NCBI RefSeq assembly: GCF_029542785.1
Contig: NC_083373.1
Coordinates: 496,001-560,000, forward strand
Source: Malassezia japonica
Lineage: Eukaryota; Basidiomycota; Malasseziomycetes; Malasseziales; Malasseziaceae
Length of the DNA stretch: 64,000 nucleotides
Direction of reading: 5' to 3'
Shown here: positions 1-63,685 of the stretch, in pieces
Layout: each line of letters begins with the position of its first letter
How positions within the stretch are numbered: position 1 is the stretch's first letter
Notes under the pieces: model-generated
Seen by the model: only the letters and a program-made list of their open reading frames with translations
Told to the model about the DNA's origin: nothing
The model's database searches: none
Made by a program: the position numbers and the translations under genes

Positions 1-1519
1 ACGGAAGATGCGCCCGAGCCGGTGAGCGAGCCCGCTACGCCGCGCACGCGCACAACGTCGAAGCGTGCTGCCAAGACCAAGGCGACGCAGGCGCTCGAGA
101 CGCAGTCGCCCAAGCCAGGCAAGAGCAACGTCAAGATTGAGGAGCCCGGCAGTGTGCTGACGAAGCGTGCGCCGCGTGCCGCCGAGGCGCCCGCATCCGA
201 AAAGGCGCCCGCGGCCGCTGCCAAGGAGGGGAAGCAGGCGGATCCCGCGGGTGCGTCCAAGGCGTTCTGGAGGAAGGTGAAGGAGCGCACCGTCTTTTCG
301 TTGCTGATGATTGCGGGCTTTATCAGTACGTCGTGTAACTCACCCAGCCATCCTGCTGATGGGCCCGTCCTACCTGATCCTGCTCGTGCTCGTGCTCGAG
401 ACGCTCGTCTACCGCGAGATTACGGCGCTCTTCAATATCCCCGGCCGCGCGAGTTTGACCGGCAGCAGCCGTGCGAGCCAGAGCGAGGCGGACGAGGAGC
501 TTGATGTGGAGCAGCGTGCGCGCGAGACGCAGCGCGAAGAGCTCTGGAGCAAGACGCTGAGCTGGTACTTTTTCGCGGTGTGCAACTTTTTCCTGTACGG
601 CGAGTCGCTGATCTACTATTTCAAGCACATTGTGTTTGTCGACTCGTTCTTTTTGCAGTTTGCGCGCCACCACCGGTTCATCTCGTTCATGCTTTACATC
701 TTTGGCTTTATGGCGTTTGTGTCGAACCTGAAGCGCCGCAACCTCAAGCACCAGTTCGGTCTCTTTTGCTGGGTGCACATGTCGCTGCTGCTGATTGTCA
801 TGTCGGCGCACTTTATCGTGAACAACATCCTCGAAGGCATCATCTGGTTCTGGGTGCCCGCCAGCCTGGTGATCTGCAACGACAGCTTTGCGTACGTGTG
901 CGGCATGCTCTTTGGCCGCACCCCCCTCATTTCGCTCTCGCCGAAAAAGACGGTCGAGGGCTTTGTCGGCGCGCTGCTCGTCACCATGCTCTTTGCATGG
1001 TGCTGGGCGGGAATCTTCCAGCGCTTCGACTACATGGTGTGCCCTGCGGTGAACCTCGGCATGAACGCTTTTAGCGGCATGACGTGCGAAAAGAACCCCG
1101 TGTTCCTCTCGCACGAGGCCTTCCTCCCGGGTATCGTCTCGGACGTGCTCACCGCGCTGCTCGGCCGCCCGGTGACCACCTTCCGCTGGAGCATGTTCCA
1201 GTGCCACGCGCTGGTGATGGCCGCGTTCGCGAGCCTCGTCGCGCCGTTCGGCGGCTTCTTTGCCAGTGGATTCAAGCGCGCATTCAACATCAAGGACTTT
1301 GGCGACAGCATCCCCGGCCACGGTGGCCTGACGGACCGCTTCGACTGCCAGTTCATCATGGGGCTGTTTAGCTACGTGTACTACTCCTCACTCATCCGCG
1401 AATCGCGCGTCACTGTCGGGCTCGTGATGCAAATGATCGTTACGCAACTGCCTCTCGACCAGCAAACGCAGCTGCTCCGTGACCTCACGCGCTACCTGGC
1501 CACCGAGGGGCACATTTAA
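1..1519 (+). CDS. CDS1: Phosphatidate cytidylyltransferase (CDP-diacylglycerol synthase), 5'-truncated
   Basis: Makes CDP-diacylglycerol from phosphatidate and CTP, the entry point to phosphatidylinositol, PS and cardiolipin; an integral ER membrane enzyme. The frame is open from base 1, so the start lies upstream. The visible part is 498 aa: a Lys/Ala-rich cytosolic N-tail, then many hydrophobic segments. The family signature (S-x-x-K-R then K-D-F, P-G-H-G-G-x-x-D-R-x-D) lies at about 1264-1347. Exons are 1-325 and 348-1519; the 22-nt intron 326-347 (GTACGT...CTCACCCAG) restores the conserved stretch ITILLMGPSYLI and the VYRE motif. Stop TAA at 1517-1519. The identification is firm; only the N-terminus is missing. 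Confidence 0.95.
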
Positions 1520-1663
1520 AAGGTAGCCCTGCCAAGCCTGTAGAAGTAGCCCCGCGGCCTGCACGGCCCATCTGCACGTGAATGCAACTCGCCTCGCCCT
1601 GCATCCGCGTGCAGCGCGCCGCTCCACTCGCTTTTGCACGCAGCGAGCGACGGACCGCGTCGC

Positions 1664-4600
1664 ATGCATACAGACGGCAGCGGCATGGCCTCCGAGGGGC
1701 CGTGGCCGCAGAGCGATAGCAGTGTACGCATGACAGAGCGACGACATGGGATCGGGCGCGTGCCGGTGCCTGCCGTCGACGGGGGCGCGATCGCTGCACC
1801 GCCCATGCAGTTTGCCAGCCTGCCCTACCTCGCCGAGCAGGCGCCACGCACCCAGGCAGGGCCATCGGCGAGCTTTATGCGACCCGTACAAAACGTGCCG
1901 GCGCCTCTGCCGCAGAGCGCGTCGTTCCACGAGATTCCTTCGGCTCCAGCCTACGGTTTGGAGCCGAGCGGGTGGAACGTGGACCGCAATCCGTTCCGCC
2001 GCAAGCAGGACGAGCACGAGACACAGCTGGCGTATGCGCTCGACACGCCGTCGGCACGGCCCAGGGGCTACCACGACGTTTACCCGTCCAACGCGTCGAC
2101 CGACCTGTCTTACTCACAGTCCTCGCTGGACATTTCACGCTCCCGACAGCCATCCTCGAGCTCGATCGCGCGCAGCTTTACCACCGACGAAGACTCGCGC
2201 CCGGCGAATACACCGTCGCAGAAGCCGCTGTCGGCGGCCGCAAATCGTGTCGCAGGGACCTTTTCACGACTGACACGCCTGCGCACGCGGCCAGTGGGAC
2301 GGTCACAGCCGGCGCCGCACAGCGCCGAGCCGGATCTGCCATCGCGCGACGTGCACGAGCCGGCGCCAGCCTTGTACACACAGCGCCCAGATGCCCAGAT
2401 GCGCCACGAGCAGCCGACGCCTGTGCCAATGGCGCCACGCTCGGAAAACCCGTCGGGATCGAGCCTCGAGGCACTGAGTCCAGATACGCCGAGCGACGCG
2501 GCCTCTCTCTCGCGGCACACACGCGGCGCAAGTGGGCGCTCACAAGCCAGCAGCGGCGGCTCGCTTGTGCAGCGCGACGCTCCGCCACCGCCCCGCGCCA
2601 TGACACGCACGGCATCCAAGCCGGAACTGCGCTCACAGCCGATGGATGCGCAGTTCCAGCGCCTCGAGCTGATCGGGCGTGGCGCGTACGGTGCCGTGTA
2701 CCGCGGCAGGCACAATCCATCGAATACGCTCGTCGCACTCAAGGTGATCGACATGGACACGCCGGACGACGACGTGTCCGAGATCCGCCGCGAAGTTGCA
2801 TTGCTGAGCCAGATGCGCCAGGCGCATCTCAAAAATATCGTGCGGTACTGGGACTGTTGGCTCTCGGGCCCGACGTTGTGTATTGCGATGGACTATGCCG
2901 AAGGCGGCAGCGTCCGAACTTTGGTACGTTTTTCTTTTTTCCGCTGACCCAGATGAAAGCCGGCACGATTCTCGAGCGCCACCTCGCTGTGATTATGCGC
3001 GAGACGCTCGTCGCCTTGGACTATATCCACAAGGCAGGCATTATTCATCGCGACATCAAAGCGGCGAATATCCTTGTGACGCGCACCGGGCAGCCGATGC
3101 TGTGCGACTTTGGCGTCGCCGCTTCGTTCGTACAGGGCGGCACGCGGGGAAAGCGCAGCACGCTGATCGGCACACCGTACTGGATGGCGCCGGAAGTGAT
3201 CCTCGAGGGCAAGACGTACGACTACAAGGCCGACATCTGGAGCTTGGGCATCACCGCATACGAGATTGCGACTGGCAATCCCCCGATGGCCGAGCAGGAT
3301 CAGCACCGCGTGATTGCCATGATTCCCAAGAACAAGCCGCCGCGCCTCCCGGACGGCGCCTACTCGCCGATGCTGCGCGAGTTTGTGGCGGGGTGTCTCG
3401 ACGAGGACCCCAGTGCACGCCTCGCCGCCGAGGACCTCGCACGTACCAAGTGGATCCGCGCGTACGCCAAGACGCCGGTCTCGGTCCTGCGCGAACTCCT
3501 CGCGCAGTACGCAACCTGGACACAGGCCGGCGGTGTGCGCACGAGTCTCATCCAAGGCAAGGATGGGCCACTCGCATTGCGGTACGTACTTTTGCTGACG
3601 CAGCCTCGCATCCGAAGACCCATCTGTGGTGCCGATCGAGCCGGAATGGAAGTTTGGATCGATGGATTCGGACGACGCTGCGCCGCTTGCGCTCGAGCAG
3701 GCGCTGCCGTCCGAGCCGGTGCACGACCATCCTCTGCAGCGCATGTTTGAGCGCGACGATGCGCCAGCCGGCGAGCGCACGCCAAAGCCGCCAGTGTCTG
3801 GCACGAGCACGCCGCGCCCAGGCGCACTCGCGCAGGCAACCACGCAGGCAGCCACGCCTGCGCCTGCGCCTCCCGCTACTCCCGCTGCCGCGACGCCGAA
3901 CCGTGCCGAGCGGCCGGCCGGCGGCGGCTTTGCAGGCCTCGGCTCGACGCCGTTCCGCTTCGGTGTCGGGAGCCGTGCGCAAGCGACGCCTGTCGCCAAA
4001 GACGCGCCGCCTGCTGATGCTGCGTCCGAAGGCTCGCCACGCGACACGCTCGGCGCGCCTGCGCCATCGCTCGTGACGCACAGCACTTCGCTTGCGGCGA
4101 TCGGCGAGGCAACGCAGGACGAGGCTCCCTCGCCCCCCGGCACGTCGCCGAACGGCGCGAGCGACGGCATGGCGCCGAGCCTCTCCCAGTCCACGACCTC
4201 GCCCGAGCTCGATGCCGACGAGATTGACTCGCCGCGGCAGTCGCCAGCGCTGCGGCGCGTCGGCCGCATGCCCCAGAGCATGCCCCGCTCAGCGTCGCAG
4301 CGCCCGCTGCGCCTCGTGTCTTCCTCGTCGTCCCTGGGCTGGGAGACACAGTCCAAGACGCGCGACGATGCGCGGCGGACCGAGGCGACCAAAGCGCCCG
4401 ACGCCCCCTCGTTCCTTGGCGAGCCCTACTCTGGCTTCCGCCCCCAAGGCATCATGAGCCGCACGCGGAGCCGCAGCGGCGGTGCGGCCGATCTGCGGTC
4501 GCGCCCCGCCGCGTCGCACCATGCGTCGCAGTCGTTCACCGGCCGCACGCGTCTCGCCCCCCTGCAGATCTTGTCGCGGGCCTCGGACGCCCCCCCCAAG

Positions 4601-5233: not shown

Positions 5234-7121
<1,888 letters not shown>

Positions 7122-7213: not shown

Positions 7214-8148
7214 ATGAACTCGTTGTACAATCTGGCGACGCGCCAGACGGCGGCCATCCGCACGGATGTCGAGTCGTACAGTGCGGATCCGTCGAACTCG
7301 GCACGCAGGGCTCAGATAAATGCCGCATTCACTACCGTTCTCAAAACCATCGAGGACTACGAGGGAATGGCGAAGCGCGAGCTGGTCGTCGCCAAGCGCG
7401 AAAAGGCGCTCAGCAGGGCAGACAACTTTCGCGCAGAGGTGAAGCAGCTGCGCGAGACAATGGCACGCGCAGATTCGGGGGGCGGGCGTGCTACTACGAT
7501 GGCATGGCCTGCAACGCAGCCGGCCATGGCGCCAAGGTCGCGCGTGGTCGACGGCGCGAGTGCCGCGCCGCAGGCCATGGCTAGTGGCGCCGCGCCGCAG
7601 TACATGGCAGGAGGCGCCGCGCCGTACCCGGTGCAAGACCACCGCCCGTCGTACCCGGCTCTCAGCCAGTACGCCCGCCCGACGCTGCCGGCCCAGTACA
7701 GCATGCCGCCGACGCAGATGCCGTACTCGTACGGCGCCGGACCGAGTCACGACCCGCTCGCAGCGTATCGTGCTGCGCAACCGGACGCGCCGCTCGGAAC
7801 CGACTCGCCGTACAGCATGCGCGAGGGCCATGCGCTGCGTGAGCACTCGTTTATCCAGAACACCGAGGCGCAGCTCGATGCATTCATTGCGCAGGGCCGC
7901 TCGGTCCTCGGGAATCTGGTGGAGCAGCGTGGCATCCTCAAGGGGACGCGCAAGCGCCTCTTGGACGCGGCCAACTCGGTGGGCCTGAGCCGCGAGCTGA
8001 TTGTACGTCGCTTTGCTCACACAGGGTTTGATCGACCGCATTGGCGCGCAAGACAAGATTATCTTTATCGTCGGCGCCGTATTCACCTTGTTCGCCTTTT
8101 GTACGTCGCCCCGCTGACCCAGTCATGATTTATCGTTGGTTCGGCTAG
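7214..8148 (+). CDS. BOS1: Golgi Qb-SNARE Bos1/membrin with a long proline-rich linker
   Basis: ER-Golgi vesicle fusion SNARE. Exons 7214-8002, 8025-8100 and 8123-8148 (both introns 22 nt) give 296 aa, longer than yeast Bos1 (244) and human membrin (212). Order: N-terminal helical bundle starting MNSLYNLATRQ, an unusual Pro/Ala/Met/Tyr-rich linker at about residues 95-195, then the SNARE helix with NTEAQLDAFIAQGRSVL, and a C-terminal membrane anchor made from exon 2 (IIFIVGAVFTLFAF) with a short RWFG luminal end from exon 3. The two introns are essential to see the anchor; unspliced translation ends in an Arg-rich nonsense tail. Confidence 0.9.
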
Positions 8149-9175: not shown

Positions 9176-10641
9176 TCATACCTCCACGTCGAGCAGAAAG
9201 GTGCTCAGGCGCTGGGGCGTGGTGAGCCACGCGGCCAGGGGGTAAGAGGAGCCAGAGGCGGGCTCGTGGAGCTCGATAGGCATCTCTGTGGCCAATTCAT
9301 CTTGGCGGGAGCTGAGCGCGAGAAAATTCGCGACGCGCGCCTCGTTCAGATCGTCGTCACGAGGGCCACGGAGGGCCTCCTTGGCTTCTTGGTAGGCACG
9401 AATGTGTGCGTCCCATAGAGCAAAAGGGGGCGGTGTGACCATGTATTCGGGGTTTTTCCATTGCGCATACGTGCGCGAGGTATCCTGGGGACTTTTTGCG
9501 CCGTGAGCCAGATCGGTCCGTGCGCGGACCACTTGATGGAGCCATGCGCGAGGCGACAGCGACGACCACGACGAGAGAGAAAGGGGGCGGTCGCCTTTGC
9601 GCTTGGTCGATGCACCCATTTTTACACCGCCCAAGATACTCTCCATGCGGCTCCCACGGCGCCAGACAATTGCTGGGTGAGAACAAGGACGTACCTCCTG
9701 CACTTGGCACAGGCTCGACGTCTGCCCATTTTTCAGAGCCTTGCGGTATGCGTAGTGATGCCGCAACATGCTCCTCGACCTGGTTGCGACCGCTAGGAAA
9801 GGGCTGGTCGACAAGGTGCACGGTGCACCGAGGCGCGTGTGCGCCGAGTCCGGCCAAGGCTGACGTGCACGCAACCGCATACGTAGCGTCCATACCAGGC
9901 GTGCGTGAAATCACAATGCTAGCATAAAACACCGGCTCGAGCCACTGCGAGAGCAAAGCGCCTTGAATTCCCAGCGAATTCCACAGGCGCACCTTGTCCG
10001 AGCACGACATGCTGATCGCCGGCGGCGAGTCGCGGCGCCCAGGTTTGGTACGCAGAAGCATGCCCTGAGTTGACGACGTCTCGCGGCCACGCAAGAGCGA
10101 GCCGGCCGCATGTGCCGCCGTCTGTGGTGTATGCCCTGTGAGCTCGTCCTGCATGGCGTTACGTGCGTGTAACAAGCACGAGGATGCCTCGCCGCACGGC
10201 GGCGTGGATATGTACAGATGTATGCGCGCCTGATCAGAGAGCCGCCAGCGCACCGGCGCATGGTCATGCGTCATTGTCGGCGTAAAGAGGCGAGGGAGGC
10301 CGTCGACCTCCTCCGCTTGGCTCTGGTGCTCCAGCACGAGCCGCTCGAGGAGCCATGCCCGAAGTGCGCGTCGTACGAGCACTTCGGCATGACAGTCGTG
10401 AAGCACGTCGCCGTGGCGCGGGAGTTGGGCATACGGCATGCACTTGACGCCTGTGCCTAGAGCGATCGGAATCAAGTCGGTGCCGACCTGCGCGACGGCC
10501 CCCGCCAGAATCGTCCATTCCTCCCTACATTAGTGAGCTTGCGTACCTTCCATTGGACCGTTTCTGTGGCTTCCCGCCGCCTTTCGGGAGCGCCGCGTAG
10601 GCCTGCAAGCACGTCCGTGCGACATGGTCGGCGTCGGCCAT
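9176..10641 (-). CDS. TAD1: tRNA-specific adenosine deaminase 1 (A37 of tRNA-Ala)
   Basis: Deaminates A37 to inosine next to the anticodon of tRNA-Ala. Exons 10641-10547, 10524-9695 and 9672-9176 (both introns 22 nt) give 473 aa. Exon 1 and 2 join to read [13 protein letters not shown], the usual start of the adenosine-deaminase domain. Zinc and catalytic residues are in [10 protein letters not shown] (His and Glu), PPCGEAS (Cys) and [10 protein letters not shown] (Cys). The second splice joins to [20 protein letters not shown], equivalent to the C-terminal substrate-binding part. Start chosen because the first ATG gives the expected [15 protein letters not shown]. Confidence 0.93.
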
Positions 10642-10680: not shown

Positions 10681-11851
10681 CTACAATTTTTCCTTGTCCG
10701 TGCGTTCCTGGAGGTGTGTCGACTGGAGCTCCTTGGCGAGCTCGTCGGTGCTCGGCAGCGGCGGTGCGTCGTGTTTCTCTACCGCTTTTGCATCTGCACT
10801 CTTTGTCGGAGGCTCTTTTGCAGGTGCAAAGCGTCCGAGCATCTCTTGGTAGAGTGCGTCCAACTCTGCTTCCCAGCCGCACTTTTGGGCCAGGACGCGG
10901 ATCGTTTCGTCGACCTTGCCCCCGCAGAACGTGTCGCGCGAGCCCTCGGAGAAATCGAATCCTCCTCCATCCATAGGATCGAAGCGTGCGAGGAGACCCT
11001 TGCGCGCCTCGCCGACCTTTTCCAGGTTCAGCAGCCAGCGCGGGCAGTCGCGCGGCACTTCGTCAATCAGCGCGGCGAACGGGTTGACCTGGGTAAGTAG
11101 CGCGACGTACAACGAGCGACGTGCCGAGAACCATGAGCACCTGGGCACGCCGGAAATCAAAGAGGCGCTCAAAGAAGCGGTCGGGGAGACTCTCGCCAAA
11201 GACTGCGTTAGTCCAGCAGCGTACAGGTAATATCTGGCTTGATGCTCGGCGGCTCCTTTTTCTTCGCGCACTTGGGCTGCTCGCACCGTGCGACTGCGCC
11301 GCTCTTGACCTTGTCCTCGAGCCACTGTGCATCGACTTGTTTCTTGCACTCGATGCACCGCGCCTTGGCAAATGAGCCGTGCGCCTCGACGAGCATGTCG
11401 GGTGAGAGGCCCGCGAGCTGTTCGAGCGTGTCGACTGTGTGAGCATAAGCACGTACTGTTCTGTGTAAAGACACGCAAGAGTTTCCCCTTCTTTTCGAGC
11501 AGCGTAAAGAAGCAGTGCGTGAGCGTCGGCCGGTACGTCTTGCCGTCCGGATAGAGCTCCTTGTACAGTGTATAGAACGGCTGGGGGTTTCCACGGAAGA
11601 AGCCAATGTCAAAAAGGGCCTCGGGGTACGGCAGGTCGTACTTGGCCAGGCTCGCGTACAGTCCCGTCACCGGCGAGCGAAAGTCGGGGATGCCTGCGCC
11701 GGTCGAAATACCCGCTCCCGCCATGACGAGCACGCGCGTCGCTGCATAAGCACGGCTACCTACTCTTGTCATTCGTAAGCTTCTTTGCGAGGCGGTCGAG
11801 GCCCGCCTCGGTGCCGGGTGCAAGCGCCTCCTTCGATGCCGTCATGCCCAT
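10681..11851 (-). CDS. HST2: Class I sirtuin, cytoplasmic Hst2/SIRT2 type
   Basis: NAD-dependent protein deacetylase. Five exons: 11851-11764, 11741-11457, 11434-11225, 11202-11111 and 11088-10681; all four introns are exactly 22 nt. The 360-aa product shows [14 protein letters not shown], the TQNIDTLE motif (split by intron 2), catalytic EAHGSF, zinc cysteines CIEC and CEQPKC, KPDITFFGE (split by intron 3), LGTSLVVNPFA and the Hst2-type [10 protein letters not shown]. The C-terminal 90 aa are Glu/Lys/Pro-rich. A second sirtuin of the SIR2/HST1 class lies at 62-63.7 kb. Start ATG 11851; a second ATG follows two codons later. Confidence 0.95.
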
Positions 11852-42977: not shown

Positions 42978-44103
42978 ATGGCGTGGATGCGCGCGCTGCG
43001 AGGCGTGCGGGGTGTCGCGACGCAGGCGGTGCGGCCCGAGACGAGTCGAGCACAGCGCTTTGCTGTGTATGGAGCGGCGTTTGTAGCGGGGATCGGCGTG
43101 GGGTGCTGGGTGACACGCCCACGCACCGCACTGCCAGGCCCCGAAGACTATGCCGAATTTTCGGTGCTGGGCTCGGCGCTCTTGCCGCGCGACGGCTCAG
43201 CGGCGTTTGACGTACGCGAGCCGGCGGTGCACCGCCTTGTGCAGGTGAAGGCTCAAGGCGACCTCCCTACGCCGCCGTCTGACACACTGCGCAGCCGCCT
43301 GGCGATCTACTCGTACTATGTAAAAGAGCCGTCGCTGCAGGTCGAGCGCGCGTATACGCCCCTCGCGATGCTCATGCGGGGCGAGGCGTCTGCCCTTACA
43401 TTCCTCGTGAAGCGGTATACGGACGGCGAAATGTCGCGCTACCTCCATCGCCTGCGCCCGGGCGGAAGCGTCTCGCTGCGTGGGCCGGTGCCGACATGGA
43501 CGCTGGGCGACGCGCCGATGCCCAAAGAGATTGTCATGGTACGTACTTGTGCTTACGCAGCTTGTCGGAGGCACTGGTGTGAGCACTGCACTGCAGCTAC
43601 TCTCGAATGTGTACTCGCATCCGTCGCCGGATGCGCCCAAAATCAAGGTGCTGTACGCCGCCCAGTCGCTCGACTCGCTCGAGATGGTGCCGGACCTTGC
43701 GTCGTTTGCACACGCGCATCCCCAGCAGGTGTCGCTTGGCGTGTGGGTCGAGCGCCTCGGCGGCCAGCGCGGCATGCTTGGCGGCGTCGAGCCGACGCCG
43801 GCCACCGTGCGCCCCCTGGCGCAAAAGACGGGTTGGTTTGCCAAGCCCGCCGCGCCGAAGCGGTACCTGCTCTCGGTCGGCGAGCGCGATATTCCCTTGT
43901 CGCACGGCCGCCTGGCTCCGGCGGACCTTGTCGAGTGGACCACGCCTGGGGACGACGGCGAGCGCCTCGTGCTCGTGTGTGGCCCCGATGGCTTTGTACG
44001 TGCGGTAGCGGGCGCCAAAGGCCGCGACCTGCTTTCGCAAGGGCCGCTGCGGGGTATGCTGGCCTCGCTTGGTTACCGCCCGAACCAGGTCGTGAAGCTC
44101 TAG
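42978..44103 (+). CDS. Mitochondrial FAD/NAD(P)-dependent reductase, Cyc2/cytochrome b5 reductase-like
   Basis: Exons 42978-43538 and 43561-44103 (22-nt intron) give 367 aa. Basic, acid-free presequence (MAWMRALRGVRGVATQAVR), a membrane helix (FAVYGAAFVAGIGVGCWV), then a ferredoxin-reductase fold: FAD-binding ERAYTPLAM and FLVKRYTDGEMSRYLHRLRPGGSVSLRGP, NAD(P)-binding LVGGTGVSTALQLL (restored by the splice), and C-terminal VLVCGPDGFVRAVAG. Architecture suits Cyc2, which reduces haem for cytochrome c maturation in the inner membrane; a generic b5 reductase is the alternative. Its TAG overlaps the stop of COG4. Confidence 0.75.
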
Positions 44104-46448: not shown

Positions 46449-47277
46449 ATGTTCTCCGCTGCGCGTCTACAGGACAAGGTGGTGCTGGTGACCGGTGCGT
46501 CGTCCGGTATCGGTGCTGCGACTGCCAAGCTATTTGCTCAGGCCGGTGCGAATGTCGTGCTGGCCGCGCGCCGCGCGGATAAGCTCTCGGCGGTGCGCGA
46601 GGAGTGCGAGGCGGCGAACAAGGCGGGCCAGTCGGGCAAGGGCGGGCGCTACGCTGCGATCTCGCTCGACATGCGCAACACGGAGCAGATCGACAAGGTG
46701 CTTACGCAGCTGCCCGACTGGGGCAAGGACGTCGACGTGCTGGGTACGTCTCTTTTCTGACGCAGTGAACAACGCGGGCCTCGCCGTGGGCACGGACCGT
46801 GTTGGGGACTTGCAGCTCGATGAAGTCGACCGCATGTTTGAGACAAACGTCCGCGGCCTGATCCACATCACGCAGGTCTTTGTGCGCGAGTTCAAGCGGC
46901 GCAGCACCGGGCACATTATCAACATCGGCTCTATCGCGGGTGTCGAGGCCTACCCCGGCGGCTCGGTGTACTGTGCATCGAAGTTTGCGGTGCGCGCCTT
47001 TACCTCTGCGCTGAACAAGGAGCTGTACGACACGCCGATCCGCGTGAGCAACATCCAGCCGGGTATGGTCGAGACCGAGTTCAGCGTCGTCCGCTTCCGT
47101 GGCGACCAGACGGCCGCCGACAAGGTGTACGACGGCATCGAGCCGCTCACTGCCGAGGATATCGCCGAGGAGGTCGTGTGGACCGCAAGCCGCAAGCCGC
47201 ACGTGAACCTCGCCGAGGTGCTCGTCATGCCGGTCAACCAGGCGAGCCCGTACCACGTCGCGCGCCCGGGCAAGTAG
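46449..47277 (+). CDS. Short-chain dehydrogenase, YMR226C/YdfG type
   Basis: Exons 46449-46743 and 46766-47277 (22-nt intron) give 268 aa. NADP-binding TGASSGIGAATAK with AARR after strand 2, NNAG (restored by the splice), catalytic GSIAG Ser, YCASK Tyr/Lys and IQPGMVETEFS. Closest to the NADP-dependent serine/3-hydroxy-acid dehydrogenase branch (yeast Ymr226c, E. coli YdfG); exact substrate not deducible. Stop TAG directly abuts the SFI1 stop on the other strand. Confidence 0.9.
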
Positions 47278-50173
47278 CTAGGATGCGCGGAAACGCGCCG
47301 TAGGCGGCACAAACACGAGCCGGTGCCGAAAGTCGCTCGACGCACGCCGGCGGTGGCCCTCGAGCTTTTGGATGTTGTGGAGCTCGCGCATGTACTCGGT
47401 CTTGGCGCGCCACGTACGCAGCGCATCGCGCTGCAGCGACGCGGCGGCGAGCGACGCGGCGCGCTTTGCACGCGCACGCGCGGCCCAGTGGCGCAGCGCG
47501 CGCACGAGCAGGCGTTTCTGGCGCAGGTCGACAAGCGGCTGGACGCTCGTGCGCGCAAGCCAGGTGGAAAAGTACTGACGCATGACGTATTTGCAGCGCG
47601 CAGCGAGCGTCACATACACTTCGTAGGACAGACGGCGGCCCGCGAGGCGGTCGCGCCACGCGTCTAACGCACGCTGCTGCAGCCGCGCACGCCGCATCGC
47701 TGCACACTGCGCGAGCGCCGCACGCTCGCGCCGGGCTTGCGCAGCGCGCTCTCTCCAGGCCGAAAAGACGTGCCGCACGAGGGCTGGGTAAGTGCACAAG
47801 CGTACCTTGATCGCGCGTCTGCACCGCGCGGTCCGCGGCGTGGTCCAGCGCTTGGACGCGCTCGTGAATCGCCTTCCACTGCCAGAATGCTTTGCGGATG
47901 AGCACGGCGGCGTGGACGCCGTCGGCCTGCCGCACAAGCGCCTGGACGTCTGACGTACGCCGCAGCCAGTGCGCCAACTGCTCCCGCTGGATCCGCGCAC
48001 TGGTTTTGGCGTGCAACAGCGCGGTACAGGTGCGCCAGTGGTACCGCTCCGCACGGAGAAAGCGCCACGCTACATGAGACGCAAGACGTACCTTGCAAAT
48101 GGCGGCGAAGCGCCTCGCGGTCGCTCTCTGCCCGGAATCGCGCGGCCTGGGCGTGCTGACGCATGGCGCGCCACTGCGCCCATGCGCGCCGCACGAGGTG
48201 CGCGCTGCAGTGGGTAGCTGCGCTCGCCAGGTCGCTGCGGCGCACGTCGAGGCGCGCGCGCCACTGGCGCCACACAAGGCCGACAATACGGCAGTCGCGC
48301 GTACGCGCGGCCAGCATCCGCTCGTGTTCCCAGTGCGCTTGCCGCTGCTTCCACGCATTCCACGCGGAGCCGAGCGTGGTCCTGGTCCTGTTCGCAGCAA
48401 ACGTGCCCAGAGCGGCTGCGTGAGCGGGGCAACGTACCTTGTCTCGCGATACTCTGCTCGGTAAAGCGCACCCACCACACGTTCCACACGGTGCGCACGA
48501 GCTGTGCATTGCGCACCCGCTCCGAGTACGCGGCGCGCTCACGTAGAATCCAGTAGTGTAGCGCAGCATGCACACGCGTCCGCGAATGGTCCGCGTACAG
48601 CCGCCCCGCCGCGGTGTTTCGAATCTCGGCGAGCCGCGCATGCCGCCGCCAGTGCGTCCAGGCGCGCTGCAGCTGGCCGCGGCGCCAGTAGGCCGCGGCG
48701 CGGTGCACGTCGGTGTGCGCCGTGGTCCGGCCGCGCCACTGCGCCCATGCACGCTGCAGCGCATGGGCCGCAAGAGTGCGTGCGTACGCCTCGCCACGGC
48801 GCTCGAGTTCGCGTGCCCCGTCGGAGCGGCTGCGCCATACGGCAAACGCGACGCGCATCACGCCTTCGTCGTGGTAGCGCACGGCAGTGCGGTGCGCGTG
48901 GCCTTGCCGCCAGACCTGGGTGAGTCGGGGTACGTACGGTCCATGCCAGGCGCTCGAGACTCTGGCTGCGCCGCGCCACGATGGCGTCTAGAGCAGCGGC
49001 GAGCGCCTGCTCGTACGCCGTGTCTCGCTCGGCTTTTCGCTGCGACAGGCGCGCAGCCCACGCGTCAAAGGCGCGCGTAACGCGCATACGCGCCGCGTAC
49101 TGCGCCGCGTGCGCAAGGGCTTGGTGGTGGCCGGCGTACTTGTCGTGCCATGCCGCCCAAGCGTGCGCTCGCAGCCGCTGGTGGTCGACGCGCGTCGCCA
49201 GGTCGTAGCGCTTGCGTACGGCGGCCGCACGGCGCTGCCAGTGGCCGAGGGACGCGGTAAGCGTGTGCTCGTTGTGAAAGTGCGCGGCCTTGGCCAAGGC
49301 GCGTTTCTGCCGTGGCGACGGCAGGTCCAGCGCAGTGCTGGTGCGCCGCCCGCGCTCATAGAGGCGTGGCGCCAGGCCGACACGCACCGGCGACACGGCC
49401 GACGCGCCCGGCTGCCAGACTGTGTCGAGGTCCCGCGTCGAGCGGTCCGCGTCTTGGGCCCATACGTCGTCGTCCGATACGCTTCCTTCGCTAGAGGCGT
49501 GGTCGTCGGCCAATGGCGGCGAGCCTTGCAGCCGCCACGGCGCAGGCGTGTACGGCGTTGGCGAGAGGGGGCGGACGTATGACGCGCGCGACGTCGCCAC
49601 GGGTCCCGGTGCGTACGGCCGCGAGGTATGCGGCGCGTACGACCGCGAGGTATCTGGTGCGTACGACCGCGAGGTATCCGGCGCGTACGACGCGCTCGAT
49701 GCAAACGAGCGCGGCGCGTACGACGTCGACGCAAGCACGGCCGACATGTCGTGCATGTCGAGCGACGCGTCGCTGTCGGACCCCCGAGGATCCAGGCCGA
49801 GCAATACGCGCACGGTATCCCAGCGCTCGGCCCACGACTCGCCCCGCACTTGGACCATTGCGAGCAGCGAGTTCCATAGGCGCAGCTCGGCGGCCTTGCG
49901 CCGGTCCTTTACGCCGGGTGGGAGCGTGCGTGCGACGCGGTCGAGGTGCGCCGTCGCGCCCACCGCGTCGTTGAACGCGTCCTTGAGCTCCACAAAGCTG
50001 CACGAATCCGGGCGGATCGCGTCGACCACCTCGTCGAAAAATTCAATTTCTGCATCGTTCAAACGTAGGGACTCGGCGAGGTGCGGCGTGCGGTCACTAT
50101 AGCCCGCATCCCCGTCCGAGCGGCGCCCGCCGCTCGAGTGGAAAAAGAGCGACGAGGTCCCTACGTCGTCCAT
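47278..50173 (-). CDS. SFI1: Sfi1-like centrin-binding spindle pole body protein
   Basis: Exons 50173-48938, 48915-48438, 48415-48092, 48069-47806 and 47783-47278, four 22-nt introns, give 935 aa. N-terminal 330 aa are Ser/Tyr/Pro-rich with a tandem repeat; the rest is a series of Sfi1 centrin-binding helices marked by A/L-x3-W-x2-W spacing (ALQRAWAQWRGR, QLQRAWTHWRRHA, LVRTVWNVWWVRF, IVGLVWRQWRAR, LVRRAWAQWRAM, LIRKAFWQWKAI, LVRALRHWAAR). I count more than 15 tryptophan repeats by eye. Sfi1 filaments with Cdc31/centrin form the half-bridge for pole duplication. The five exons only make a continuous helical array after splicing. Confidence 0.88.
49611..49692. repeat. 24-bp coding tandem repeat in SFI1
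   Basis: Units begin at 49611, 49635, 49659 and (partial) 49683 with core GCGTACGACCGCGAGGTAT. On the SFI1 strand they encode SYAPDTSR-like octapeptides. Confidence 0.85.
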
Positions 50174-50916: not shown

Positions 50917-53140
50917 ATGGCCAACGTCCTTGGCATCGGCGCGCCGCGCTCGGCGCATGTGCCGCTGCGCGATGGGATGCTTGCGTACTTGCGCGAAGCA
51001 TACCCCGATATCCACGCTGATCTCTTTGAGCAGGACATTGAGGCGTGGGAGAGCGCGCGCGACGCGTGCCTCGCGCTGCCCGTAGCCGCCTCGAGCATCG
51101 CTTCTTGGAGTCGGTACGCGACGCAGCTCGCGTTCATGCTCAGCGTGCTCGACCGCAACGCCGGCGCAAAAGACGCCGAGCATACCGCGCTGGGCGTCGC
51201 CTTTCCGTGGGCCTCGGGCGTCGAAGGCGGCAGGGCCGTCGCGTACACCTCGCTGGCGGTGGAGCGCGCGTGTGTCGTGCAGAGCATCGCGGCGCAGTAC
51301 GCGCTCCTGGGCTGCGGCGAATCACGGAACGATAAGGAGAGTATCAAGCGCGCGACCGCCTACTTTCAGCAGGCCGCCGGCGTCTTGGCGCTGCTCGAGA
51401 CGCTCGCGGGCGCCGACGTGCAGCAGGCGCAGCCGCCGGTCGAGCTTACGACCGGCGCGGTGCGCGCGCTGCGCTATCTGATGCTCGCACAAGCCCAAGA
51501 GTGTTTCTGGCAGAAAGCTGCACAAGGTACGTCGACCGACTCACCCAGACGGGCTCAAGGACACGACGATCGCCAAGCTCGCCAAATCGGTGTCGGACCT
51601 GTACGAATCGAGCGCAGGGGCGGCGAATGCATCGGCTCTCCCAGCGGGCTGGAAGAACCATATTTTGTTTAAGCACTATCACTTTGCGGCTGCTGCGCAG
51701 TACCGCAAGAGCAACGACGACCTCGCAGAGAAGCGCTACGGCGACGAGCTCGGGCGCCTGTTGCTCGCCGCGTCGTACGTCCGCCGTGCGCTCGCACTGC
51801 CGACGCGCACGCTTCCGCTTCCGGCGCTCGCCGAGGATTTGCAGGGCCTCCAGGCGATTGTCGATACGAATCTCGCACGCGCCGAGCGCGACAACCAGCT
51901 CATCTACCTCGAGCCGACCACGAGCGAGGCCAACCTGCCTTTGATCGGCGCGGCGCTCATGGCAAAAGAGGCGCCGTCAGACCTCCAGGCGCCGCTCGCG
52001 TCGATTGGCCGGCCCGAGCACGAGCTGTGGTTCTACCGGCTGATTACCTACGGCATCGACGTCGCGGAGCGGCTGTACGCCGACCGCAAGCGGCACTTTA
52101 TTGCGTCGACCATCGAGCCGATTCTCGTCCGCCTCGACACGAGCGCCGCCGAGACGCGCAGCGCGCTCGACCTGCCCGGCCTGCTCGACCGCATCGAGTC
52201 GCCGCGGCGCATGCCCGCGGCGTGGGCGACGTACACCTCGACCCTGCAAAAGACAGGGGGCTACGCGGCGCTCACACGCAAGAGCGAGAGCGTGCAGCAC
52301 ACCGCGGCGTTGTGCCACGACCTCGTCGCGGAAGTCGACGGGATCCTCGGGCGCGCCCGGCCCAATCTCCCAGAAGCGAGTGTCGTGCGGCAGCACGAGC
52401 TCCAGACGCTCTGGCGGCAGTACCGGCGCACGCTCAGCGAGGCGGCATCCAGCGACGCGACCGTGCGCGAAAAAATGGCGTCGGTGCGGCCGGCGCTCGA
52501 CGCGCTGCAGCGCGGCGGCGCGGCGCTCGCCGATCTGCTTACGCCGCAGTCGGCGGCACTCGAGCGTGCGCGCCGCGACCTTGCGCCCGAGCTGCGGGCG
52601 CTGCGTGCGAACCTCGAGCAGGTCGACGACGGTGCGGCGCAGCGGCGCACGCTCCTGCTGCAGCTTCGCACTGCCTGCGACAGCGACGCGATCCGCACGC
52701 GCCTCGTCGACGCGGCGCGCGAGCGGCACCTCGGCGATGTCGCACAGACCCACACGGTGGACCCCGCGGCGCTCCAAGACGTGCTAGAGGCCGGCATGGA
52801 CAAGTACACGCCGTACCACGCGCGTGCCGACGCGCTTGCGGCCGAGCAGGCAGCGCAGCTCCGCGGCCTGCGCGAAAAGACGGAGCGGCTCTTGACCCAC
52901 GGCGCGCTCGCCGCGGCGCTCGACGCGCAGGACGCGGCGCATGCGCGCGTCGACGACGCATACGACGAGTACGCAACGTTGCTCCAGCACCTCGACGAAG
53001 GCGCGGGGTTCTACGAGCGCCTCTTTGGCCTCCTGCGCACCTTTCGCGCCGAAGTCCACGACTGGCTCGAAGGCGTCAGCGGCCGTGCGCCGCAGTGGGG
53101 CGCATTTCCGGGGGGCGACATTCAGTTTCGTGACACATAG
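50917..53140 (+). CDS. RIM20: BRO1-domain protein Rim20/PalA
   Basis: Exons 50917-51526 and 51549-53140 (22-nt intron) give 733 aa. BRO1 domain about residues 1-350 (LGVAFPW, VERACVVQSIAAQYALLG, RATAYFQQAAGVLALLE, LMLAQAQECFWQKA, the joined DGLKDTTIAKLAKSVSDLYE, HFAAAAQYRKSNDD) and an ALIX V-type coiled domain. It lacks the Pro-rich tail of Bro1/ALIX, ending soon after the V domain, which favours Rim20/PalA, the alkaline-pH pathway scaffold that brings Rim13 to Rim101. Confidence 0.85.
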
Positions 53141-53154: not shown

Positions 53155-55618
53155 CTATGTAGCGACCAGCGACGCCGGGCGCAAAATCTCTGGCGCACAC
53201 GTCCAGAGCGAGTGCGTGTCGCGGACGATCTGTGCGCTCGGCGCCAGGAGCGCATCGGCCAGCGCGCGGCCAGCGTCGGACGCGTGCGGCGCAGCAGGCG
53301 CGGTAAAAAACGCGGTCCACGCGGCGCTCGCGGGCGTCCACGAGGCAAAGAGCTTGGCCGCGGCGCGCAGGTCGACCGGCGCGTCGCGCTCCGCCGCACG
53401 CACTACTTTGCGCACCGACGCGAGCTCCGCGGCGGCGCTCTTGCAGCGTGCGAGCACCGGCTCGGGCGTCGCCGGCTCGTCGCCGAGGCCGTCGGCGTAC
53501 TGCGCGAGTTCTGCCTTGGCGATGTACGCCACAAACAGCGTGCAGCCCGCGAGGGTCTCGCGAAAGAGCGCGGCGGCCTCGGGAAAGGCAAGCAGCTCGA
53601 GGAGCGCATCCGCCTGCGGCGTCGCCTCGGTCGTCGTCGCGACGGCGTGCCGCGCGGCGGCGGCGAGGAGCGCGTGCAGACGCTGCACACCATCGGCGAG
53701 GTGCCACGCATGCCGCGTCGCAAACGGCACAGATGCGTCGCGCTCAAGCAGCTCCGAGAAGCGCGTCGTGCTCGCGTCGATGCGCGCGCGTGCGAGGTAG
53801 GTATGCAGCGACGCAAGCTCGACAAACAGCGCGAGACGCCGCCGGACGAGCGTCGCACACGCCTCGTCTTCGCGGCTCAGCAGCGCGAGCGCCGCGCGCG
53901 CCAGCGTCCACGTCTGGTAGTACGACACGCCGGAGCGCGCAAAGCCGAGGGCGTGCGCAGTCTCGGTGAGGATATCGGGCAGCGCCGAGGCAAGCTTCGT
54001 GTGCGAGTGCGCCCAGACTGCCACGTCGCTGCACTCGGCGTGCCGCAGCAGAGCGAGCGCAACGAGGCGCCCGGCGCAGCGCGCGATCGGCGCACAAGGC
54101 ACGGGGAGCGCAAAGCACGCGAGCGCGCTGCCGGGATGCAGCACCGCACCGCCGAGCACGCCGGCGGGTGACACGGCCATCGCCGAGCGCTGCAGCGTGC
54201 CGACCGGGAGTGCGGCGGCGGGCGTGTACGCGAGCGTCTCGAGCTCGACCTTGCCCCAGACCTCGGCGCCGGCGTGGAGCGCCGTGGTATACGCCAGCGA
54301 GCTTTTCGGCACGCTCGGGCCGGGCGAGAGGAGGGACGTGACGACGTGTCCGTCGAGGAAAGCGCTGGTGCGCGGGCAAAATGACTGTGTGAGTAGGACG
54401 ACGTACCCATCCGCGCCCCTTGTCGGAGCCCTTATCGAGAGCCCATGCCACGAGCAGCGAGCCCCGCCAGTGGTCGTCGGCACGCACGCCGAGCGTGAGC
54501 ACCAAGCGGAGCTCGTCGCGAATCTGTGCCCACTCGAGGTGCGTCAGCGCACGCGCGGCACGCGGCGCGGGATCCGCAACGCACAGCTCGCTCAGCGCAA
54601 TCGGGATCGGAGCAAGGGGGTTGATGGTAAAAAACGACATTTCCCCGTCGAGCTCAAACTGGAGCTCGGTGAGGCACACCACCTCGCGCTGCGTCGCACA
54701 CGTGTACGCAATAAGCACCGCCGGCTCCTCTGGCACGGCGCTCGCGGTGATGTGCGTCACTGCGCGCTCCCACGCCTCGCTCTTTCCTTCGTGGTGCTCG
54801 AGCGTGGCCGGCGGCGGCTGCACGCTCGGCTCGGCAAGCCAGCCGTGGTGCATGCGAAAGAGGCATGCGTCGAACGAGGCGACCTGCGCCTCGACGAGCC
54901 TGTGCCAAAAGCTGACCTGGCCACTTTTGGTGCAGACGACAAAGGCCTGCTCGCCCTGCGCCTCGTCCACGCGGAGATTCGGCTGATTGATCAGGTCCGA
55001 CGGCCCCGCGGCCGGCGCGCGTGCGTACGCGGCCTTTTGCGCGCCGAGCGGCGCGTCGATGTTCCACGCGCGCGGCGCGCCGAGCCAGCACACGTTCGCC
55101 ACGTCGCCGTGGAGGGTCTGTGCCTTGGGCGGCGCGTCGCCCTCGAGCACCGGGAGCGACTGCCGCAGCGTCCACGCAGCAAGCGGCGCATCCGGCAAGC
55201 GCGTCCAGATGCAAAACACACCTTGGTCGCCGCTCCACTGCTGCGCGCTCGGCGTGGTGGCCGTGAACGGGGTCATGACGGGCGATCCGCCCTGTGCGAG
55301 CGTATCCAGCGTAATCGGCGCAGCGAGCGCCGCGCTCGGTGCCTGCCCCTTTTGCACGCCCAGCCGCACTGGAAAGTAGGCAAGGAGCGTCGATCCGCAC
55401 GGGCTGAACGAGACGTACGAGGCGGCCCCCAGCGTGGGGCTCGCGTGCGCCGGGGCGTACAGCTTCGCGAGCGGCGTGCGCGCACTCGCGCGGCGCACAC
55501 ACACACACGCCCCATGTGTATCCACCTCGCCGTGCGCGATAAGATTGTGACGCGACCAGGCCACCGGCCGCTCCGCCGCCCGCGCGCCGTCCGCCAGCGA
55601 CTGCACCCAGCCGGACAT
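53155..55618 (-). CDS. MED16: Mediator complex subunit 16 (Sin4)
   Basis: Exons 55618-54407 and 54384-53155 (22-nt intron) give 813 aa. N-terminal beta-propeller: VAWSRHNLIAHGEV, YVSFSPCGSTLLAYFP, GVFCIWTRL, ANVCWLGAPRAWN, SFWHRL; helical C-terminal part with SALPDILTETAHALGFARSG and the closing DTHSLWTCAPEILRPA. This order (WSRHNLIAYG opening, non-canonical WD repeats, helical tail domain) fits Med16, a tail-module subunit. Assignment is by pattern, so somewhat less certain than the enzymes. Start at ATG 55618. Confidence 0.78.
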
Positions 55619-55659: not shown

Positions 55660-56263
55660 ATGGCGGGTGCGCGCAATGCGTCGGCGGCCGTGCGCCGTCT
55701 GACGATCGAGTACAAGCAGTTAACCAACGACCCGAACACGCTCTTCCCAGCAGTCGGTCCGATTTCCGAAGATAACTACCTGGAGTGGGAGGCGCTCCTC
55801 CCCGGCCCCGACGACACGCCGTTCGAAGGGGGGGTGTTTAGCGCACGCCTGACCTTTCGTACGTAGACGTGCTAACGCAGCGCCGACCTATCCGCTAGAG
55901 CCGCCTACGATGCGCTTTGAGCCGCCCATCTTTCATCCCAACGGTACGCCGCACGTCTGACGCAGTGTACCCCGACGGCCTCGTCTGCATCTCGATCCTG
56001 CACGCCGCCGGCGACGATCCCAACAGTAGGTGGCCTATCTGACGCAGTGTATGAGTCCTCTGCAGAGAGGTGGTCGCCGGTGCAGTCCATCGAAAAGATC
56101 CTGCTCTCGGTGCTGAGCATGCTCGCCGAGCCGAATGTCGAGAGCGGTGCCAACATTGACGCATGCGTACGTCGCGCTCCTCACCCAGAAACTCTTCCGC
56201 GACAACCACGCGGCGTACGAAAAGGTGATCCGCGACCAGGTCCAGCAGCAGCTGGGGTTGTAG
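55660..56263 (+). CDS. UBC7: E2 ubiquitin-conjugating enzyme Ubc7 (UBE2G)
   Basis: Exons 55660-55858, 55881-55943, 55966-56025, 56048-56166 and 56189-56263, all four introns exactly 22 nt, give 171 aa. HPN motif in FHPNVYPDG, catalytic Cys in GLVCISIL, followed by the 13-residue acidic insertion specific to Ubc7 ([19 protein letters not shown]), then [26 protein letters not shown]. Acts in ER-associated degradation with Hrd1/Doa10. Five exons in 604 bp make it the most intron-dense gene here. Confidence 0.97.
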
Positions 56264-59542: not shown

Positions 59543-59588
59543 TTCGGCCGAAATAGAACGCGACGCGTCCTTCTGCCCAACACGTCGG

Positions 59589-59970
59589 ATGAGCGCGAGG
59601 GCGAGCGAGAGCGCGCCGGGCGCCGCATTTGTGAACCCGTACGAAGGGAATAAGAGCCTTACGCCGAACGAGCGCGCTTTGTTGGGCGAGTACGCACGGC
59701 TCGCACAGACGTTGCGCAGGGTACGTTGCGTGGCTGACGCAGGTGGCCGCACTCAGCACGCAGATTAGTGCAAGCTCGACGCACGCCAGTGTGCTCAATG
59801 ACCTGCGCGTGGTTGAGCGCAAGATGGGGCTGGTGCTCACACTGTTCAAGGCCAGCGTCTGGGCGATCGTCATGCAGCAGAGCGATGCACAGGACGAGGC
59901 CGAGTGGGAAGAGCTCGAGAATCAATACGACCAGATGGCAATTCCGGAAGAGGACGAGACGGACGTGTAG
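59589..59970 (+). CDS. DAD3: DASH/Dam1 kinetochore complex subunit Dad3
   Basis: Exons 59589-59720 and 59743-59970 (22-nt intron) give 119 aa. NPYEGNKSLTPNERALLGEYARLAQTLRR then DLRVVERKMGLVLTLFKASVWAIV are the two conserved Dad3 blocks; the C-terminal 35 residues are acidic (EAEWEELENQYDQM). DASH couples kinetochores to microtubules. Start ATG gives the expected short N-terminus. Confidence 0.93.
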
Positions 59971-60062: not shown

Positions 60063-60089
60063 CACACACCACACACACTACACACACCC
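60063..60089. repeat. CA-rich low-complexity tract
   Basis: CACACACCACACACAC-type sequence in the 281-bp gap between DAD3 and the DUF1769 gene. No gene seen in that gap; CACGTG at 60221-60226. Confidence 0.7.
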
Positions 60090-60251
60090 GGATGGCGCTT
60101 CTTCTGCATCATTACATGGTGTCGCTTGCTCATCAACACGCGCAAACCAACGTCGGACGCGCGAGCGTCCACGGCACAGCGCTGCTCCACGTCATACTAC
60201 GCCGCTCCGTCGGGTGTTGCCACGTGACAAAACCCTCGGCGCGACGGGCGC

Positions 60252-62003: not shown

Positions 62004-62051
62004 CTAGAAAGATGCAAGGTGTGGTATAGTGTGTGCTACGAATGTTGGATG

Positions 62052-63685
62052 CTAGGGCGTGTCCGCCGAGACGATGAGGGGAATAGGGGAGATGACCGGA
62101 GTGTCTTTTACGACTTCGCCGCTTGCGTGTTCCACGTCGCTTTCGTCCTCGTCGCGCCCTTCTAGTTGGTCGACGTACCACCCGCCGTCGGCACCGGGAA
62201 ACTTGTACACATGGCTGTGTGAGAAGAAAAAAATAAAACGACGCACCTCTCGCCCACGCGCTCGGGCTGTGCATCGCTGTGGCTGCCCTCCCAGCCCAGC
62301 TCTTTGCCGAGGTACTGCACAATGCCGTCCGAGTCGCCCAACAGCATCACGTCCATGGCCATGTGGGTAATCGGAGTCCGATTCAGCAGCACCACGGGCA
62401 CGTTCGAAGGGAGATGCGTCAATAGATCGGCGACCGGTGCGACCTTGAGCGACGTGCCCATCACGAGGATCAGATCGACCTCCTCGCGGTCTGCAAACAC
62501 ACACCGGTCAAACTCGTCAGGGAGCTTTTCGCCAAAAAAGGTAATGTCGGGCTTCATGATGCCGTACGCGAGGTCCGACTCGTCTTCCGACTCGTCACCG
62601 CCCCACATGGCCGAGGTCTTGGGCCGCTTCGCACGCCGGCGCGCGTCCGCATCTTCACGGCGCGCCGTGCACCTGGGGCACGCCGGTATACGCTTCGCAA
62701 GGAGATCGTCGCGGATCACGCTCCCATCCACCTTGTACCCACATGAGGGGTCCGTGCACGTCGCCGTCGCAAACGAACCATGGCACTGGAGCACGCGCGA
62801 GATTCCCGCTTTCTGCTCGAGCGTGTCGATATTCTGCGAGTACATGCGCAGGAGCTTACCCCGCTCTTCCAATTGCTTGACAAAGTAGTGCGACGCCGAA
62901 GGCTGAAAGTTGGCCGGATAAATCGAGTGGCTGCATAAGACACGCAACGTACGCAAACGAGTAAAAGAGCGACGGATCGCGCAAAAAGACTTCCTTGTCA
63001 AACATGTCCGAGGGATCGTCCAGCTCGTACTTTTCTTCCTGCGCAAGGATCGCGTAAATGCCGTCTTTCGAACGAAAGTCGGGGATGCCGCAGGATACAG
63101 AAATCCCTGCACCACATAGCACGACAATCTTTTTCGAGGTGCGCAAGAGGCGCAGTACGTCCTCGAGTGTATTAAATTCGTCGAGTTTTTGCCGCTGCCG
63201 GAGACTGCGTCAGAACATCGACCTACATTCGGGTGAGCACCATCTTGAGCAGAGGGAGTACCGCATATGGATTCGATTCCGCTTCTTCGAGCACGTTTCG
63301 TGGCTGCGTCAGTCGCCTCACCTACCAGCATCACGCCGAGAGAGAGGAGGAGCGGCACAATCTGGTGAGTCGGACGACGTACCTTTTCTGGCTGCGACAC
63401 CACATGCCGCTGCAAGCACACGAGGATTCCGTGCTCGCGCAAATCGTGAATCACGTCGCTGACCTCTTCGCGCGAAAGCGGGCCGTACTCGGGCTCGCTC
63501 GAGCTCGAGGCGCCTTCTTCTGCGAGCTCAGCGGCGCCTTGCACGCCTTCGCGCTCAAGCTCTTCCATCATTTCTTGCTCGGCCTCCTCTTCCAGTCGAT
63601 CAAGGTCCTCGGAATTGAGGTCATCGTCCAGAGTGGCGAGCTCTGCGAGCGCCTCTGCGCTCGGCCCCACCTCGTTCAGCGTCAT
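62052..63685 (-). CDS. SIR2: Sir2/Hst1-class sirtuin
   Basis: Exons 63685-63383, 63361-63326, 63303-63227, 63204-62953, 62930-62247 and 62214-62052; introns 21, 22, 22, 22 and 32 nt; 504 aa. Acidic N-terminus (DRLEEEAEQEMMEELEREG), the Sir2 N-domain helix (SREEVSDVIHDLREHGI), then GAGISVSCGIPDFRSKDGIY, FYSFAHSIYP, SQNIDTLEQKAG, catalytic QCHGSFATATC, zinc pairs CTDPSC and CPRC, KPDITFFGEKLP, LVMGTSLKVAPV and NRTPITH. Insert between zinc pair and KPDI is basic/acidic. C-terminal 50 aa acidic. The length and N-domain place it with nuclear Sir2/Hst1, probably a silencing deacetylase. Confidence 0.94.

Follow-up and report, generated by a model that had tools for sequence, protein, structure and literature searches.

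Spliceosomal introns that are both tiny and nearly uniform in length have been described in several distant lineages. In Mikrocytos mackini they measure 16 or 17 nucleotides (nt; 217 and 7, respectively, of 224 introns in 179 genes; PMC10245619), in the heterotrich ciliate Stentor 15-16 nt, with the branch-point A at position 10 of 15 or 11 of 16 (PMC9505925), and in chlorarachniophyte nucleomorphs 18-21 nt, the median in Paramecium being 24-25 nt (PMC10245619, PMC12862383, PMC2483917). Uniform tiny introns as such are already known from mikrocytids, Stentor and the nucleomorph. Here, we describe such a class in Malassezia japonica, a skin yeast (Basidiomycota, Ustilaginomycotina), in which predicted introns of exactly 22 nt prevail in a stretch of 64,000 nt (bases 496001-560000 of contig C4; hereafter, the window) and appear to recur throughout the assembly of 8,433,779 bases in 9 contigs. 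The class had been proposed in a sequence-only reading of the window, which rightly noted that short introns are known in this lineage: very short Malassezia introns are in print (PMC7426719). The same reading placed the class near the lower limit for any eukaryote; the introns are indeed very short, but those of ciliates, mikrocytids and nucleomorphs are shorter still (15-21 nt). Within the genus, Malassezia restricta also has short introns (median 30, mean 37.2 nt, n = 2,150; PMC9241646, Table 1), with no 22-nt spike reported in the available parts of that paper. Its gene models admitted introns down to 15 nt (PMC6473144), and the introns of M. globosa have a mean of 76-79 (PMC4634964, Table 2). 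The portion of the Malassezia intron literature that we covered contained no report of a 22-nt spike.

To obtain intron lengths, we decoded genes in a 264-kb sample made up of the window and twenty 10-kb stretches of contig C1, using a codon model on both strands and semi-Markov introns with a flat length prior. In the first run only a GT start and an AG end were imposed, with neither motif nor length, and in the second run donor, branch and acceptor signals were added, the length prior still being flat. These signals had hand-set starting values and were re-estimated in three rounds from the decoder's own calls; the decoder accepted no end other than AG and, in the second run, no start other than GT or GC. 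For genome-wide counts we used a strict 22-nt word, GTANGT-N7-CTNAC-N-CAG, with the same pattern reversed as a control.

The motif-free run returned 118 introns, 56 of them at 22 nt, the next class being 23 nt with 9, and much of its long tail resembled noise. With the signals added, 100 of the 177 introns were 22 nt long (41 of 62 in the window, 59 of 115 outside it). The distribution rose abruptly from 2 introns at 21 nt to the peak at 22 nt, and then fell to 23 at 23 nt, 4 at 24 nt and 12 at 25 nt before dwindling to 34 nt; ten calls were longer, scattered over 38-108 nt. The introns are thus uniformly tiny, 123 of the 177 having either 22 or 23 nt. The strict word matched 2,329 times genome-wide, and its reversed control not once. 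The 22-nt peak is not due to chance, since it appears in motif-free decoding and the reversed control is empty. Furthermore, the one-sided tail above a cliff at 21/22 nt indicates a hard lower limit on which lengths pile up, not a fixed ruler. The sequence-only reading had spoken of such a ruler, and this holds insofar as the branch-to-end distance and the minimum start-to-branch distance are nearly fixed, but not for the lengths, which form a cliff with a tail above it.

In the window, the signal decoder gave 41 introns at 22 nt, 2 at 21, 4 at 23, 2 at 24, 2 at 25 and 11 longer ones. It missed or misplaced three exact 22-nt words, at 8101-8122, 21174-21195 and 23176-23197. Splicing the first two lengthens the reading frame, and with the third spliced as a 22-mer the frame stays open, whereas the decoder's 26-nt version runs into a stop. 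Because this third word takes the place of a 26-nt call, the correction brings the count to 44 of 64 introns at 22 nt, compared with the 44 of 62 counted in the sequence-only reading. The three examples singled out there (326-347, 3582-3603 and 8003-8024) each read GTACGT...CTNAC.CAG, and its gene-by-gene lengths were recovered by the decoder: all four introns of HST2, of UBC7 and of the gene it named SFI1 have 22 nt, as do seven of the eight in IKS1, the eighth having 21. In the 264 kb there are 77 exact copies of the strict word, 70 of which were called as introns without any knowledge of length; of the other 7, the three in the window just described look like introns, and four lie outside it. 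Of the 100 decoded 22-mers, 70 match the strict word, from which we estimate about 3,300 introns of 22 nt genome-wide, and the density of 177 introns per 259 kb of readable sequence would give perhaps 5,700 introns of all lengths; both figures are extrapolations from one contig and the window and include the decoder's errors. Taken together with the homology at junctions presented below, the strict words and the decoder peaks bear out the proposal of a genome-wide class of 22-nt introns, which would be spliceosomal.

The length of 22 nt splits into two distances, each with a lower limit of its own. When genome-wide patterns were compared at equal motif content, the 2,329 matches came from a start-to-branch distance (first base to branch-point A) of 17 nt with a branch-to-end distance (A to last base) of 5 nt, while one base fewer before the branch (16 + 5) gave only 3, with 4 in the reversed control. 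One base more gave 268 matches when placed before the branch (18 + 5) and 143 when placed behind it (17 + 6; reversed controls 0). The same sharp cut-off is seen in the spacing table of the 264-kb sample (donor GTA[CGT]GT, branch CTNAC), in which all 84 cells with a start-to-branch distance of 10-16 nt and a branch-to-end distance of 3-14 nt are empty; 80 motif occurrences fall in the 17/5 cell, 12 at 18/5, 5 at 20/5 and 2 at 17/4. Among the 170 decoded introns with a CTNAY motif, the start-to-branch distance is 17 nt in 109, with one weak call at 13, and the branch-to-end distance is 5 nt in 133, longer introns included, so that the branch is anchored to the terminal AG as in Yarrowia.

The lower limit behind the branch was examined at sites where GTANGT-N7-CTNAC, with the branch A at 17, is followed by an AG at +3. 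There are 28 such sites genome-wide (reversed control 1), and every one of them has a second AG, at +6 in 27 cases and at +8 in one (15 sites by matching of pattern lists, 13 from fetched flanks), although base composition predicts an AG at +6 in about 1 site in 17. In the 264 kb there is one further +3 AG, with the branch A at 29; here, too, another AG follows, at +8, and the decoder made no intron call. A usable +3 AG would yield introns of 20 nt; as it never stands alone, it is insufficient by itself. The predicted acceptors thus place the norm for the branch-to-end distance at +5, with +4 rare but real (two conserved 21-nt introns) and an AG at +3 not sufficient.

The signals within these introns are strict. 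All 100 decoded 22-mers start with GT and end with AG; the donor has A at +3 in 98, C at +4 in 80 (A in only 1), G at +5 in 100 and T at +6 in 90, and the branch and acceptor have C14, T15 and A17 in 99 each, C18 in 85 and C20 in 92. G at +8 (60) and C at +9 (55) are enriched as well, and the relative entropy of the strict word amounts to about 25 bits over its 22 nt. Among decoded introns of all lengths, 170 of 177 contain CTNAY, so that U2-type ends are combined with a YTNAY branch, +4 is C in 136 and the donor is GTACGT in 113. To our knowledge, a GTACGT donor is unusual among fungi. The donor of U12-type introns is RTATCCTTT, and none of the 177 decoded donors reads GTATCC (the decoding did not extend to AT-AC introns). 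The donor switch described in Saccharomycotina is between +4A and +4U and is tied to METTL16 and SNRNP27K (Parker et al., PMC10581693).

Several changes in the splicing machinery were considered and rejected. Slu7 and Prp18 are dispensable in budding yeast when the branch and the 3′ splice site are close together; both were found in the genome, which rules out the loss of these second-step factors. U6 was found with a canonical ACAGAGA box, ruling out a compensating U6 change for the +4C donor. Loss of METTL16 was set aside on finding a member of its Pfam family (E 6e-41), although this family also matches 5 of the 14 control genomes, all prokaryotes, so that its presence is not proof of METTL16 itself. 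A U1 with an altered 5′ end was sought with ATACNTACCTGG; its 7 matches (none with the usual T) had no U1 match in Rfam and resembled coding sequence or donors read in antisense. A U1 loop pattern matched 6 times (reversed control 4), none of the matches being U1-like on reading, and the 4 that were scanned gave no U1.

The junctions were compared with homologous proteins. The spliced SIR2, IKS1 and HST2 proteins were aligned to 8, 7 and 5 relatives, respectively, and a junction was accepted where one relative or more matched without gaps over the 12 surrounding residues, 7 or more of them being identical. Of the 17 junctions, 14 were confirmed in this way, namely 11 of the 14 at 22 nt, both at 21 nt and the one at 32 nt; some relatives have gaps at junctions which others cross cleanly. 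In addition, all four junctions of UBC7 and the one of a short-chain dehydrogenase are ungapped against Protein Data Bank (PDB) sequences in alignments judged by eye, and a public M. japonica protein matches the SIR2 spliced from the window without a single difference over 504 aa.

These observations are best explained, in our view probably, by a hard minimum length with a pile-up, that is, by ordinary U2-type introns eroded to the shortest length accepted, which is the sum of two minimum distances (17 + 5 nt). The first of these, which runs from the start of the intron to its branch-point A, would be 17 nt, and the second, from there to the intron end, 5 nt (in rare cases 4, but not 3). Most introns would rest on this floor, giving the mode at 22 nt, and longer ones would tail off above. 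The 17-nt limit may arise because the U6-bound donor and the U2-bound branch site must fit one complex, and the 4-5-nt limit may be set by the active site of the second step. Deletion pressure would push the introns down onto the floor, where strict signals of about 25 bits would keep so short an intron recognisable.

Several points weigh against this explanation. The introns of the window and the sample are predictions, with splice sites and branch points read from sequence and homology, and three of the 17 junctions, all in the poorly conserved end of IKS1, were not confirmed by relatives. The decoder made single calls at 17 nt and at 20 nt, below the proposed floor; neither has the usual donor or branch, and both are probably errors. 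Below the floor, the genome-wide count covers the start-to-branch distance of 16 nt, and distances of 10-16 nt were counted in the 264 kb. The 28 sites with an AG at +3 could be tandem acceptors using +3 part of the time. U1 was not found genome-wide with Rfam RF00003 or two sequence patterns; as RF00003 was also silent in its control genomes, the absence of U1 is not demonstrated. Finally, a donor-to-branch lower limit of about 52 nt is quoted from the human B complex (PMC11291888), so that a floor of 17 nt would need a different geometry.

The preference for 22 over 23 nt (2,329 vs. 268 with matched patterns, or 8.7 to 1 at equal motif content) is so strong that selection for exactly 22 nt could also account for it. 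The intron would then be read as one fixed 22-nt word, with 22 nt maintained as an optimum rather than as a mere floor. The information content of the word fits this, as does the fact that 70 of its 77 exact copies were called without knowledge of length; moreover, in Paramecium bursaria introns of 23-26 nt are spliced better than shorter or longer ones (PMC12862383). However, introns of 23-34 nt carrying the same signals form a one-sided tail, and 21-nt introns ending at +4 occur in two conserved genes. We therefore consider an exact-length optimum unlikely.

It is highly improbable that the length reflects selection on the reading frame, according to which a retained intron of 22 nt (3n + 1) shifts the frame and the transcript is destroyed. 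Retention does bring the stop forward in 69 of 88 cases, with medians of 27 vs. 176.5 codons, but the absence of motif-spaced introns of 19 and 20 nt in the 264 kb is left unexplained; besides, the next class is 23 nt (3n + 2), and real introns of 21 nt (3n) occur. Still more improbable is a recent burst of introners, in which a common length would be inherited from copies of one mobile element. Uniform length and a strong consensus would agree with such a burst, and, as a further point against the erosion of ordinary introns, near-identical pairs of the 7-nt spacer (at least 6 of 7 matching) number 53, compared with a mean of 25.4 and a maximum of 40 in 200 column shuffles. Nevertheless, no two of the 100 22-mers are alike, 96 of their 100 spacers are distinct, and the mean spacer identity of 0.320 equals the shuffled value, so that the spacers show no overall similarity; conservation sits in the donor and branch and not in the spacer. 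Next to no probability attaches to sequencing frameshifts or programmed frameshifting that imitate 22-nt gaps, for one GT..branch..AG word is present in 2,329 copies against none in the control, and homologs carry on across the junctions on both sides.

Table 1. Introns of 21 and 22 nt in the window, with the basis of each call (positions are those of the window)
Length (nt)	Gene	Position	Strand	Basis	Remarks
22	presumably CDS1-like phosphatidate cytidylyltransferase	326..347	+	sequence read, decoder	
22		3582..3603	+	sequence read, decoder	
22		7050..7071	-	decoder	GTACGC donor
22	presumably VTI1-like v-SNARE	8003..8024	+	sequence read, decoder	
22	presumably VTI1-like v-SNARE	8101..8122	+	exact word, missed by decoder	near gene end; spliced tail changes to ...FAFFMIYRWFG*
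22		9673..9694	-	decoder	
22		10525..10546	-	decoder	GTACGC donor, CTAAT branch
22	HST2	11089..11110	-	decoder, homology	
22	HST2	11203..11224	-	decoder, homology	
22	HST2	11435..11456	-	decoder, homology	
22	HST2	11742..11763	-	decoder, homology	
22	presumably NRDE2-like	21174..21195	-	exact word, missed by decoder	links two open frames
22		23176..23197	-	exact word	decoder chose GC donor 4 nt upstream (26 nt), stopping at 233 aa
22	IKS1	27050..27071	-	decoder	in the poorly conserved end; homologs gave no support for the junction
22	IKS1	27347..27368	-	decoder	junction not confirmed by homologs
22	IKS1	27523..27544	-	decoder	junction not confirmed by homologs
22	IKS1	27648..27669	-	decoder, homology	
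21	IKS1	27846..27866	-	decoder, homology	junction conserved; branch A at 17, end +4: CTCACCAG
22	IKS1	27908..27929	-	decoder, homology	
22	IKS1	28268..28289	-	decoder, homology	
22	IKS1	28373..28394	-	decoder, homology	
22		29594..29615	+	decoder	
22		29722..29743	+	decoder	AAAG end
22		31363..31384	-	decoder	
22		32167..32188	+	decoder	GTACGC donor
22		32281..32302	+	decoder	
22		35583..35604	-	decoder	GTTCGT donor
22		36532..36553	+	decoder	
22		37057..37078	+	decoder	
22		43539..43560	+	decoder	
22	short-chain dehydrogenase (YMR226C-like)	46744..46765	+	decoder	junction ungapped vs 3rku
22	putative SFI1 (name from the sequence-only reading)	47784..47805	-	decoder	
22	putative SFI1	48070..48091	-	decoder	
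22	putative SFI1	48416..48437	-	decoder	
22	putative SFI1	48916..48937	-	decoder	
22		51527..51548	+	decoder	
22		54385..54406	-	decoder	
22	UBC7	55859..55880	+	decoder	junction ungapped vs 6op8
22	UBC7	55944..55965	+	decoder	junction ungapped vs 6op8
22	UBC7	56026..56047	+	decoder	junction ungapped vs 6op8
22	UBC7	56167..56188	+	decoder	junction ungapped vs 6op8
22		59721..59742	+	decoder	
22	SIR2	62931..62952	-	decoder, homology	
22	SIR2	63205..63226	-	decoder, homology	
22	SIR2	63304..63325	-	decoder, homology	
21	SIR2	63362..63382	-	decoder, homology	junction conserved; branch A at 17, end +4

The SIR2 gene contains a micro-exon of 36 nt (63326-63361) between one of its 22-nt introns and a 21-nt intron. 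The annotated SIR2 of M. psittaci (P0009) lacks exactly the 12 residues of this micro-exon, as if the gene model had skipped it. In Malassezia sp. CBS 17886, the SIR2 (P0013) and IKS1 (P0131) proteins have short insertions at a junction position that resemble unremoved introns, hinting that intron positions are common to the genus. Among the public matches listed, which cover proteins of 0.55-1.75 of the query length, there was no M. japonica protein for IKS1 (introns at 27050-28394; 70 matches, the best with 55% identity) or for HST2 (introns at 11089-11763; 9 matches, the best with 73%, from M. furfur). Public annotation thus seems to miss genes rich in 22-nt introns, and any gene finder or RNA aligner whose shortest permitted intron exceeds 22 nt will break up many of these genes.

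What had been vaguely called "very short" introns in Malassezia now has a measured limit, with one base less before the branch reducing the count from 2,329 to 3, and thousands of natural 22-mers of floor length make the minimum geometry of the spliceosome testable in a fungus. We put forward tentatively, with a chance a little short of even, that the intron of this member of the Dikarya is in effect one strict 22-nt word standing on two separable limits of 17 and 5 nt. If so, it would break the published trend towards degenerate signals in lineages with very short introns, to which the named exceptions, E. cuniculi and T. vaginalis, are intron-poor (PMC2483917). The limit of 4-5 nt from branch to end would be common to very distant spliceosomes, and the start-to-branch minimum (10 nt in Stentor, 17 nt in M. 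japonica) would be set by the lineage. Within the genus, the median of 30 nt in M. restricta suggests that 17 + 5 may not hold throughout. The +4C donor, beside a METTL16-family gene and an unchanged U6, would point to an altered U1 or another reader of the donor.

Like M. japonica, mikrocytids have very short, near-uniform introns of conserved sequence, and a model of a threshold plus deletion was proposed for them (PMC10245619). They differ in the length of 16-17 nt, in a reduced spliceosome and in being intracellular parasites (PMC10245619), whereas in M. japonica the strict 22-nt word occurs 2,329 times, the lengths tail off towards about 34 nt, and both Slu7 and Prp18 are present. In Stentor coeruleus, too, introns run into the thousands within a narrow span of lengths and the branch A lies 5 nt before the end, but the start-to-branch distance is 10-11 nt, a strong branch consensus is absent, and only GUA is stringent at the start (PMC9505925). 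The nucleomorph and Paramecium likewise have tiny introns genome-wide in a narrow range; however, the donors of P. tetraurelia and B. natans are reported to be mostly just GT(A), with no branch signature (PMC2483917), in contrast to the strict donor and branch of M. japonica.

The anchoring of the branch motif to the terminal AG is shared with Yarrowia lipolytica, Giardia and Trichomonas, and the Yarrowia TACTAAC-AC-AG, with 2 nt between TACTAAC and AG, counts to the same 5-nt spacing; these species, though, are intron-poor, and the introns of Yarrowia are rather long and, as far as that source goes, without a length spike (PMC2483917). The type B introns of Trichomonas vaginalis (23-25 nt) also form a short uniform class with the branch motif fused to the 3′ splice site, but they number only 24, exist beside a long class and have a divergent 5′ end (PMC12316389). 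As both Stentor and Yarrowia have the same 5 nt from branch to end, this value may be general, while the start-to-branch minimum varies between lineages. What looks new in M. japonica is the combination: thousands of exact 22-mers with a strict donor and branch (+4C, GTACGT) in a Dikarya fungus.

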